64,000 bases of DNA from a bacterium (GTDB lineage Bacteria > Chloroflexota > Dormibacteria > Dormibacterales > Dormibacteraceae): contig SCQL01000028.1 of assembly GCA_004299235.1 (NCBI GenBank), positions 62,001 to 126,000 on the forward strand, in the 5' to 3' direction. Below the pieces are notes generated by a model that ran no database searches, was not told the DNA's origin, and saw only the letters and a list, made by a program, of their open reading frames with translations. Each line of letters starts with the position of its first letter. Position 1 is the first letter of the stretch. Shown piece by piece: positions 57,241-60,982 of this stretch. The position numbers and the translations under genes were made by a program.

Positions 57241-57536
57241 CAGGCGCCTTGGACTCCGCCAACGCGCGCCCGCCCGTACGTGATGTCAGGGCGGTCCGCC
57301 GGCAGCGCCAGGGCGTGCCCAGGGTAAGGACCCTGGCCGTACCACCCGCCGAGCTGGATGCTCTCCGCCTTGAGCGCATACCACTCGACCTCCGAAGGCC
57401 TGAAGACCTCGGCGATCAGGAGCCACGCGAGCTGGAGCGCGGATTCGGACTCGACCTCTTCCGCGGCTGGGGTCGGGTCGGGCGCCCTGTCCTCCTCCTC
57501 CTCCTCGTCGGCGAGGATCCTGGGCCACAGCTTCAT
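57237..57536 (-). CDS. Small acidic protein of unknown function
   Basis: 99 residues. After MKLWPRILA comes an acidic tract (DEEEEEDRAPDP) and then a folded-looking part with LQLAWLLIAEVFRPSEVEWYALK and GGWYGQGPYPGHALALP. ATG at 57536 overlaps the glycosyltransferase stop (ATGA). No family recognised. Paired with the next gene by GTGA overlap. Confidence 0.62.
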   Translation of the reverse strand: MKLWPRILADEEEEEDRAPDPTPAAEEVESESALQLAWLLIAEVFRPSEVEWYALKAESIQLGGWYGQGPYPGHALALPADRPDITYGRARVGGVQGAW

Positions 57537-59761
57537 GCCGTGGCTGCTTGCGCCGCGACCTGTTCGTGTGACCGCGCCACCTCGAGGACGGAGCGCTCGA
57601 GCGTGTCCAGGTGCCGTTCCCAATCGAAGCGTCGCGCCCAGGCGAACGCGCGCTCACCCATGGCCTGGTTCTCGGCGGGCCGGTCGAGAAGGTCTGCGAT
57701 CCCGGAGGCGTAGTCGCTCACCTCGAGCGGTTCGGCGAGGTGCCCGGTCCCGGTCCCCACCGTCACCGTGGGCCCGGCCTGGTTCCACGCGACCACGGGC
57801 ACGCCCTTGGCCATCGACTCGATCACGCCCATGCCGAAGTCCTCCTCGGGCGCGGGATAGACGTAGACCGCGGCGCCTTCATACAGCTGCTGCAGCTCGT
57901 CCTCGGCGATGGCGCCGAGAAACGTCACCGCGTCCGACATCCCCAGCTCCGCAACCAGGGCTTGCAGCGAAGCCGTGTGCAGCGTGGCCGGTCCGGGAAT
58001 CACGAGCTGCACGCGAGGATGGCGCCTCCGCACCTCGGCCATCGCGCGGATCGCGAGGTCGAAGCGCTTCTGGGGGTAGTGCCGGTTGGTCAAGAGCACG
58101 TACGGCCGGCGGATCGGATAGCCGTTGATGGTCAGGCCGCCCGAGAAGCGCGCCTCGACCGGCAGCGGAAAGCCGGATGCGGCCACGTGGCAGCCCGCCG
58201 GGCAGTCGATCGCGTCGCGGCGATACGTGCGCCGGATGATGTCGCCGATGTAGTCGCCGTTGACCAGCAGCTGGTCCGCCTCCTGCACCGACCGGCGGTC
58301 CGCCCACGCGACAAAGCGGGCCGCGCGCAGCACGATCGCGGCGAGCAATCGGTAGTCCGCATTCGCCACCCACCCCGTCTCGCGGTCGATGCTCCGCGGG
58401 TAGACGAGGCGGTTGGGCTGGTTGAGGTAGACGATGTAGGGCACGTCCATCAGCCGCGCCGCCCACCAGGCGATCCACGCGCTCGGCTGGTTGCAGCCGA
58501 CGATCGCGTCCACGCCCCGGAAGCGCCACGCGTAGAGCGGCATGAGAAGCGAGGTCGCGGCCATCTGCACCGCCTCGCGGAACGGGAACCAGCGCGGCAG
58601 CTGGGGCAGGAAGGTGCGCACTCGAACTTCGCCGATCAGCTCGGGATAGCAGCGCGAAGCGTCGACCGTGGGCGCGTAGCACTCGACCGCGAAACCGCGC
58701 CGCCGCAGCCCCATCACCTCCTCGATGACGATCCGCTCGCCGCCGCCCGAGTAGGTGAACCCGCAGTGGAAGACCGCGATCTTTCGCGGGCCGCCCGCTC
58801 GAGCCCGGCGCCGCCCGCCGACCAAAAAGAAGCTCAGCAGCCCCAGCGCCAGCGCGTTGCCGGCGGTGATGGCGTGGTACAGGACGATGGCCCCTGCCGC
58901 GACCGCCGGGGCCAGCCCGAGGCCGCCACCCAGGACCAGCGAACCGGCGACTTCGAGGTTGCCGAGGTAGCCCGGACCCGCGGGGACGGCGAAGCTCAGC
59001 AGCAGCGCGGGGTATGCGGCCATCGCCCGTGGCGCCGGCACCTGGACGCCGACGGCGGTGAACAGCAGGGTGAAGTTGAAGGCGTCGATCACGATCGCCA
59101 GGGCGGTGAGCGCCGCCAGGCGACCCGCGAGCGCGGGCGTCCACAGGCCGCGAGCGCCGGCGCGAAACGCAAACGCCTGCCCCGCAATCGCCGAGGCGAA
59201 TCGAGCCGGAAGGAGAGCCCGCGCCAGGCGAGAGCGCGCGAGGCGAGGGCCCAGCAAAGCCGTGCCGAGCACCGCCGCCAGCAGCGCGATCGCCAGCGCC
59301 GCGGCACCGAGGAGCCCGCGCGGGGCACTGATCACCCCGGTCGCGGCCACGACCTCGAGCCCCGCCAACACGGTCGCCACGGCCGCGAGGTCGCAGGCCT
59401 TGTCGATGACGATCGTGGCCAGGGCCGAACCCGCCGGCACGCGATGCCGCCGCCACAGCCACCACGCTCGCGCCGCGTCACCGGAGCGGATGGGCAGGAC
59501 GTAGTTAAGCAGGCCGCCCGCGGCATTCATCGCGAACGCCCTGACCATCCCGACCGGGGCGAGCGGCCGCAGCAGGAAGAGCCAGCGCCGGGCCCTGATC
59601 ACGCTGGTCAGCAGGAACAGCACGAGCATCAGGATCACCGCCGCCCAGCTCTGCACCCGCGCGTGGCTGACCACCTCGGGCAGCGACACCGTGCGAAGCC
59701 ACAGCCACAGCAGGGCCAGGCCGAAGGCCGTCTGCAGCCCAAGTCGGAGCCATCGGTTCAC
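57533..59761 (-). CDS. Fusion of LPG-synthase-like membrane domain and GT4 glycosyltransferase
   Basis: 742 residues. Residues 1-320 form a multi-helix membrane domain of the lysylphosphatidylglycerol synthase TM/UPF0104 type (LNYVLPIRSGDAARAWWLWR, VPAGPGYLGNLEVAG), often linked to lipid flipping. Residues about 330-735 are a GT-B glycosyltransferase of family 4: GGGERIVIEEVMGLRRRG, RPYVLLTNRHYPQKRFDLAI and the nucleotide-binding EEDFGMGVIESMAKGVPVVA. The two parts normally occur as separate proteins. It likely makes and perhaps moves a glycolipid. GTG start overlaps the small upstream gene's stop (GTGA). Confidence 0.88.
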   Translation of the reverse strand: MNRWLRLGLQTAFGLALLWLWLRTVSLPEVVSHARVQSWAAVILMLVLFLLTSVIRARRWLFLLRPLAPVGMVRAFAMNAAGGLLNYVLPIRSGDAARAWWLWRRHRVPAGSALATIVIDKACDLAAVATVLAGLEVVAATGVISAPRGLLGAAALAIALLAAVLGTALLGPRLARSRLARALLPARFASAIAGQAFAFRAGARGLWTPALAGRLAALTALAIVIDAFNFTLLFTAVGVQVPAPRAMAAYPALLLSFAVPAGPGYLGNLEVAGSLVLGGGLGLAPAVAAGAIVLYHAITAGNALALGLLSFFLVGGRRRARAGGPRKIAVFHCGFTYSGGGERIVIEEVMGLRRRGFAVECYAPTVDASRCYPELIGEVRVRTFLPQLPRWFPFREAVQMAATSLLMPLYAWRFRGVDAIVGCNQPSAWIAWWAARLMDVPYIVYLNQPNRLVYPRSIDRETGWVANADYRLLAAIVLRAARFVAWADRRSVQEADQLLVNGDYIGDIIRRTYRRDAIDCPAGCHVAASGFPLPVEARFSGGLTINGYPIRRPYVLLTNRHYPQKRFDLAIRAMAEVRRRHPRVQLVIPGPATLHTASLQALVAELGMSDAVTFLGAIAEDELQQLYEGAAVYVYPAPEEDFGMGVIESMAKGVPVVAWNQAGPTVTVGTGTGHLAEPLEVSDYASGIADLLDRPAENQAMGERAFAWARRFDWERHLDTLERSVLEVARSHEQVAAQAATA

Positions 59762-60075
59762 GCGACCACCTCAATCTCTTCAGACGCGGGCGCGACCAGT
59801 ATCCAGCGCTGGACGAAAAGCCAGAAGGCGAAGAGAAAGCCGGCCACCAGGACCGTGCCGCCGTGGTCGTGGAAGAGGACGGCGGGCGTGGCGTGGGACG
59901 GCGCCTTGTGATTCCCAGAGTGACGCAGTCGATTTATCTTCGAAAACGTGCACCGATCGACGATGTTGCTCGCGGATTCCCCGCCTACACTCTGGCTCCA
60001 ATCCGCCCACGTCGGCGGACGGGACCGACAGGAAGGAGGGAGTACGGGGACGCCCTGATTTTCATCGAACCTCAC
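59758..60075 (-). CDS. Hypothetical small protein with one membrane helix
   Basis: 105 residues from a GTG at 60075. The last 50 residues include a membrane helix (GGTVLVAGFLFAFWLFVQRWI) and an acidic end that overlaps the glycosyltransferase start (GTGA). The first half is of unnatural composition and lies over a pairable inverted repeat and a plus-strand terminator-bounded interval, so the true protein may be shorter, starting after about 59920. Existence of the C-terminal part moderately likely. Confidence 0.45.
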   Translation of the reverse strand: MRFDENQGVPVLPPSCRSRPPTWADWSQSVGGESASNIVDRCTFSKINRLRHSGNHKAPSHATPAVLFHDHGGTVLVAGFLFAFWLFVQRWILVAPASEEIEVVA

Positions 60076-60132
60076 CCCCCGCAGCCAAGCTCGGAGCCGG
60101 TGTCGAGAAATCGCCCGGCCCGAGCCTTTTTT
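59912..60132 (+). ncRNA. Candidate plus-strand small RNA unit
   Basis: A plus-strand promoter candidate (TTCCCA at 59912-59917, 17-base spacer, TATCTT at 59935-59940) is followed after about 150 bases by a very strong plus-strand terminator ending at 60132. No plausible plus-strand protein lies between; the frames are Arg/Pro-rich shadows. The interval also contains TCCGCC/GGCGGA (60002-60019) as a hairpin and a purine-rich GGAAGGAGGGAG tract. No known RNA family recognised. Transcript would be about 185 bases, starting near 59947. Confidence 0.4.
60089..60132 (+). terminator. Strong plus-strand intrinsic terminator without an obvious gene
   Basis: GCTCGG (60089-60094) and GCCGG (60096-60100) pair with CCGGC (60115-60119) and CCGAGC (60120-60125); a CGA-GAAA-TCG tip closes it. 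T6 follows at 60127-60132. Orientation is plus; on the minus strand there is no T-run. The nearest upstream plus-strand gene ends at 56132. Confidence 0.8.
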
Positions 60133-60139
60133 GGGGGTT

Positions 60140-60982
60140 TCAGCCGCCGTGAGCGGCCCTGCGCTCAGCCCACTGGTGCAGGCCTTCGAGCCACGGCCGC
60201 AGGGGCGAAACGCGCGTCGAACTCAGGCATCCGTTGAGCGGCCGGGCCGCTGGGGACTTGATGTCGGCGCTGGACACCGACTCGACGTCACCGCGCACCC
60301 CGCACTCCGCGAGCGCCGCGCGCGCCAGCTCATCCCAGCCACAGCAGCCGCCGGCGACGAGGTGGACCACACCCTCGAGCCCGTCCTGGGCCAGATGAAT
60401 GGCGACTGGCGCGAGATCGCGAGTGTAGGTGGGGTTCACCCGTTGGTCGGCGACGACGCGAAGCGGACCTCCCGCCCGCGCCCGCATGACGATTCGTCCC
60501 GGGAAGCTGCCGCCCTGGCTCGACGCGCCGCGGTCACCGAACAGCGCCGCGGTCCGGACCACCAGAGCACGAGGCATCGCCTCCAGCACCCGGCGCTCGC
60601 CCTCTCGTTTCGACTGCGCATAAACCCCCAGCGGTAGCGCCAGGTCCGATTCCACGTAGGGACGGTCGAGCCTGCCGTCGAAGACGAAATTGGTGGAGAA
60701 GTGGACCAGCCGCGCCCCGATGCGCTCGCAGGCCACCGCCGCGTTGAACGCGCCTTCCGAATTGACCTGGAAGGCGAGGTGTCGCTCGTTCTCGGCCCGG
60801 TCGACGGCGTTGTAGGCGGCGCAGTTGAACACGATGTCCGGGCGCCGGTCCCGCATCAGCGCCAGCAATGCGGCCGGGTCGGCGACCGAGACCTCCTGAT
60901 GAGAAACACCGGCGCCTTCCGGCAGCAGTGTCGCCAGGTCCGATCCGAGCTGCCCGCCAGCCCCCAACACCAGTGCTTTCAC
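60140..60982 (-). CDS. dTDP-4-dehydrorhamnose reductase family protein
   Basis: 280-residue SDR of the RmlD family, reducing dTDP-4-keto-rhamnose to dTDP-rhamnose. NADP loop VLGAGGQLGSDLATLLP, PDIVFNCAAYNAVDRAE, FSTNFVFDG, Tyr-Lys in GVYAQSKREGE. RmlA, RmlB and RmlC genes are not in the window, so the exact substrate is open. GTG at 60982, six bases after TACGGT. Confidence 0.9.
   Translation of the reverse strand: MKALVLGAGGQLGSDLATLLPEGAGVSHQEVSVADPAALLALMRDRRPDIVFNCAAYNAVDRAENERHLAFQVNSEGAFNAAVACERIGARLVHFSTNFVFDGRLDRPYVESDLALPLGVYAQSKREGERRVLEAMPRALVVRTAALFGDRGASSQGGSFPGRIVMRARAGGPLRVVADQRVNPTYTRDLAPVAIHLAQDGLEGVVHLVAGGCCGWDELARAALAECGVRGDVESVSSADIKSPAARPLNGCLSSTRVSPLRPWLEGLHQWAERRAAHGG

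Follow-up and report, generated by a model that had tools for sequence, protein, structure and literature searches.

A conserved C-rich arm and terminator hairpin, very probably the 3' end of a small RNA in a family of Dormibacterota

In a genome of the Dormibacterota, a group of uncultured soil bacteria, about 66 bases of the plus strand very probably form the 3' end of a small regulatory RNA that had not been described before. This element combines an unpaired, C-rich arm with a terminator of its own. It was found in a window of 64,000 nucleotides, by which we mean the whole stretch of DNA that was analysed, and we count it as a new RNA family and as a regulator of an already known kind. The original prediction had proposed a small RNA on the plus strand with a terminator at its end, and conservation in relatives supports such an RNA at the level of sequence. 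The features of the locus are collected in Table 1.

Table 1. Features of the small RNA locus and its surroundings (window coordinates)
Feature	Position	Strand	Evidence
Conserved upstream block with promoter-like boxes and a palindrome, consensus CTTGGGATTCCAAG	59906..59962		67% mean identity across genera
Candidate -10 box TACACT	59986..59991	+	Conserved short block in alignment of 30 type-1 upstream regions; tentative
Presumed variable 5' part of the RNA, local hairpin TCCGCC/GGCGGA at ~60000-60020	59993..60066	+	39% identity
C-rich segment GAACCTCACCCCCCGCAGCCAA	60067..60088	+	Almost unchanged in every type-1 copy; type 2 has five C; unpaired in consensus fold
3' terminator hairpin, 6+5+3 pairs, bulged A, GAAA loop	60089..60125	+	Fold; pairs kept in 99.5% of cells
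T6 tract, predicted RNA 3' end	60127..60132	+	Every complete type-1 copy shown has the T tract
rmlD (dTDP-4-dehydrorhamnose reductase), convergent with the RNA	60140..60982	-	PF04321
'Small membrane protein' ORF	59758..60075	-	Residues ~63-105 correspond to sequence that in relatives immediately precedes the LPG-synthase gene, ~3 kb away

The terminator hairpin (GCTCGG-A-GCCGG-TGT-CGA-GAAA-TCG-C-CCGGC-CCGAGC) is built from GCTCGG/CCGAGC (6 pairs), a bulged A, GCCGG/CCGGC (5 pairs), a small internal loop and CGA/TCG (3 pairs) below the GAAA loop, and is followed by C60126 and then by the T6 tract. The strong plus-strand terminator that had been predicted was real, with its T6 and GAAA tip, but its stem has 14 pairs and not 11. 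The hairpin folded with -28.2 kcal/mol (z -2.4), and 5 of 200 shuffled sequences folded equally well. It was not listed by a simple terminator scan, probably owing to the bulge, and a sigma-70 promoter scan found no site. Since the simple scanners listed neither the terminator nor a sigma-70 promoter, the hairpin is a modest signal when single-sequence evidence is taken alone.

When the 241-base region was compared with 40 related genomes, 17 of them gave matches, and these were centred on its 3' part. When 13 relatives that belong to other genera of the family were aligned, positions 60067-60128 showed a mean identity of 97% (minimum 92%), whereas the 81 bases upstream of this core and the 40 bases downstream of it showed mean identities of 39% and 38%, respectively. 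Three genomes of other genera carry the 66 bases at 60067-60132 without a single difference, and a fourth carries 65 of them; altogether, 6 of 12 relatives in this comparison had exact matches of 62-66 bases to the window. For the protein of the adjacent rmlD gene, identity is only 54-66%. The difference between core and flanks, the long exact matches and the divergence of the rmlD protein indicate that the core is sharply bounded and under strong constraint, and exact identity over 66 bases next to flanks of about 38% is decisive evidence against chance.

Of the 42 genomes in the Dormibacterota family of the window, 34 carried the element according to a covariance model, as did 35 of the 110 genomes of the class, the one extra match beyond the family (G047) being weak. 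Only two further matches were obtained in a scan of 400 genomes of the phylum. The match in G149, which is outside the class, was rejected as an out-of-family copy: it lies on a 3.8-kb contig that carries genes of the window's family (DHWR01000124.1; L027 / L137) and is probably mis-binned. The match in G284 was located inside a large open frame and was probably due to chance. The element was not convincingly found by the covariance model outside the family among these class and phylum genomes. An exact pattern of the element was found on 35 contigs among approximately 85,000 species genomes; the named matches were all Dormibacterota or 'Chloroflexi' MAGs except two (labelled Bacillota and unidentified bacterium). 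The genomes of the family that had no match were still negative under looser filters and with a pattern allowing 3 mismatches, which informs on the five-C form only and misses the window's own copy, as the six-C form amounts to one inserted base. The element was unmatched in the plasmid collection.

The copies occurred in two forms. Type 1 (29 genomes from seven genera) has six C residues, a short GAAA-type tip and a T tract. Type 2 (5 genomes from four genera) has five C residues followed by GCAGCCAUGCUCGGUGGAGG and a long variable tip, which in one copy carries an insertion of approximately 40 nt; up to three matches were observed per genome, with two to three in G011 and G021, and most type-2 copies showed no obvious T tract. 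The arm-plus-stem motif common to both types is about 26 nt long. The hairpin and the T tract were present in all complete type-1 copies (the T tract count refers to the complete copies shown, as type-1 copy L016 ends at a contig end), so the terminator predicted from the window is also conserved in relatives. The base pairs of the stem were kept in 99.5% of cells, compared with 33-50% when the partners were slid. One C-G to G-C compensatory switch was detected between the types and was still paired in 6 of 6 type-2 rows; within type 2 one compensatory pair was observed, a result matched by 99 of 500 shuffles with six sequences and little power. Covariation of homologous regions, which had been suggested as a check, thus showed that pairing was kept, but the compensatory changes amount to a single pair between the types and another one within type 2. 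The C5/C6 single-base differences and the non-triplet length differences between copies argue against a conserved reading frame and for a conserved non-coding sequence. The single C tract sits in a segment that is unpaired in the consensus fold, and the loop of the hairpin is GAAA.

The evidence for a promoter of the RNA's own consisted of readable boxes in type 2 and a tentative -10 box in type 1. Variants of the latter in relatives were TAAACT, TAGACT and CAAACT (TANACT-like), with no clear -35 box in type 1. In type 2 a sigma-70-like pair was located roughly 115-145 bases upstream (TTGCAA-16-TAAAAT in L041), and similar boxes were read by eye in L023, L024 and L026. The promoter-like pair of the original prediction lies inside the conserved upstream block, but it is weak and was not a site in the sigma-70 scan. 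This block probably controls the RNA and, in relatives, also a divergent helix-turn-helix (HTH) gene that it precedes, so that it may act on either strand. Transcription of the RNA is what these boxes and the terminator would suggest, and we infer that the variable region upstream of the core belongs to the transcript. The fold z-score for 59993-60137 was -3.0.

The genes on either side of the element (59761 and below; 60140 and above) are all on the minus strand, as had been stated and as the flanking gene calls bore out. In most relatives approximately 3 kb separate the RNA from an LPG-synthase/glycosyltransferase gene, and this stretch contains a double-HTH gene (HTH_17), an 817-aa family-2 glycosyltransferase (p817) and an exosortase-like gene. 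Most of it is missing in the window, L009 and L011. The gene at window positions 57533-59761 (-) encodes a single 742-aa protein in which a membrane domain of the LPG-synthase type is joined to a family-4 glycosyltransferase. The last ~40 codons of the small membrane protein ORF matched the end of the exosortase-like gene of relatives; its longer homologue in L021 is PF09721, and the window ORF itself had no Pfam match. By these matches the ORF is an exosortase-like C-terminal remnant joined to upstream non-coding DNA and not a likely target gene, which speaks against the antisense action on this gene that had been proposed.

An action in cis, whether as an antisense RNA of the small ORF or on the genes that lie convergent with and divergent from the RNA, so as to control the sugar cluster, is improbable. 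The arrangement of the type-1 loci would fit it, since the RNA is convergent with rmlD in 26 of 29 and divergent from the double-HTH gene in 22. However, the small ORF is a gene remnant, there is no overlap between the core and rmlD, and the RNA is retained at loci that have lost the HTH gene, p817 or rmlD (the last in L049). The type-2 copies have unrelated neighbours in four other genera, being located near a CvpA/trypsin-like protease gene, upstream of a gene whose beginning resembles Trm112 or near an ABC transporter gene. The suggested control of the sugar cluster is not supported by this distribution. The RNA is independent of any single neighbour, and its survival of neighbour losses argues for an action in trans. 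Even less probable is that the element is merely a strong terminator between convergent genes. A good hairpin and T6 do adjoin the rmlD end, but termination would not call for 22 unpaired bases that stay invariant upstream of the hairpin, the strand that carries the T tract has no gene, the loop and stem sequences are identical across genera in spite of the divergence of the rmlD protein, and arm and stem are kept in type 2, mostly without a T tract.

For the action of the RNA we consider it on balance probable, by analogy with 6C/B11, that it is a stand-alone small RNA which would act in trans by pairing with mRNAs via its C-rich arm without Hfq. Such an action is more likely than antisense or sugar-cluster control. 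If the candidate -10 box is right, the plus-strand RNA would be approximately 135 nt long (about 59998-60132), with a variable 5' part that probably forms a hairpin. Its functional part would be the conserved last 66 nt, consisting of the unpaired arm GAACCUCACCCCCCGCAGCCAA and the factor-independent terminator hairpin, which may also protect the 3' end of the RNA. The C-rich segment is likely the pairing (seed) arm; it would base-pair with G-rich ribosome-binding regions of several mRNAs and thereby block translation without Hfq, as is the case for mycobacterial 6C/B11. No Hfq was detected in 21 genomes of the class. An RNA end that is near letter-perfect over 66 nt across genera without detectable Hfq offers a testable entry point to RNA regulation in Dormibacterota, and may be a further case of C-rich arms used where no RNA chaperone is known. 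We think it unlikely that the RNA is a new global regulator of Dormibacterota, in which the ~26-nt motif would be under unusually tight constraint, without Hfq, through contacts to many mRNAs or to a conserved machine of the cell.

A possible but doubtful alternative is that the conserved RNA is real but binds a protein or the ribosome, as a sponge or structural RNA, and does not pair with mRNAs. For a short pairing seed, the length and invariance of the conserved segment are unusual, with ~26 nt kept in both types, and there were no long complementary sites: in the 8 genomes searched, long complements of the arm were found only at the RNA's own locus. The arm paired somewhat better with translation starts (237 called genes in 264 kb of this genome, with rough gene calls) than with controls from coding sequence, but this advantage was reached by 11 of 150 shuffled arms. 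On the other side, CsrA, one obvious client of a sponge, is absent from 20 of 21 genomes, and the arm is C-rich and predicted to be unpaired, like those of pairing small RNAs. The single CsrA gene (G000:C64:17231-17386), found in none of the 20 relatives, lies on a contig that may be a contaminant or a recent acquisition.

The C-rich small RNAs of Firmicutes and alpha-proteobacteria (RsaE/RoxS and CcaF1 type) have an unpaired C-rich motif that can mask the Shine-Dalgarno sequence. Our element resembles them in this motif and in the intrinsic terminator at its 3' end; unlike it, they have another motif and come from other phyla, and the Rfam search detected no homology. The search of 59900-60145 against Rfam at gathering scores and at E values up to 10 gave no match. 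The nearest working model is 6C / B11 of Actinobacteria, likewise a small RNA from a GC-rich bacterium in which Hfq is not known, and likewise with a run of C that is probably its active part. Mycobacterial B11 represses an mRNA via C-rich loops that face a run of G (PMC10470900; Mai et al. 2019 as cited there); this run, a G6 tract, lies in the eccB4 5' UTR and is the site on which both of its C-rich loops act (PMC10470900). The two differ in that 6C/B11 has two C-rich loops, whereas here one C tract is located in an unpaired arm before the terminator. Membership in the Rfam family 6C was rejected, with no covariance model match and no two hairpins with C-rich loops. The Chloroflexi-1 RNA motif (RF01698), listed for Chloroflexus aggregans only (PMC2864571), is likewise a candidate structured RNA from Chloroflexi, but it did not match the window element. 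A literature search found no paper on regulatory or small RNAs of Dormibacterota.

It is extremely improbable that one of the known housekeeping RNAs (6S or SRP RNA) is present here as a divergent copy. The first scan of the six-C genomes searched gave no 6S match, which would leave room for this, but Rfam was empty even at an E value of 10. SRP RNA was found elsewhere in the genome (G000:C16). 6S RNA (RF00013) had no match in the window and a separate 6S-like sequence was located at aspS, downstream of the gene in G003 and G006, with weak matches at the aspS locus in G000 and G005. The 6S-like RNA downstream of aspS (L139:3129-3305 and L164:1345-1458) scored below the Rfam gathering score and is a lineage-specific 6S missed by Rfam.
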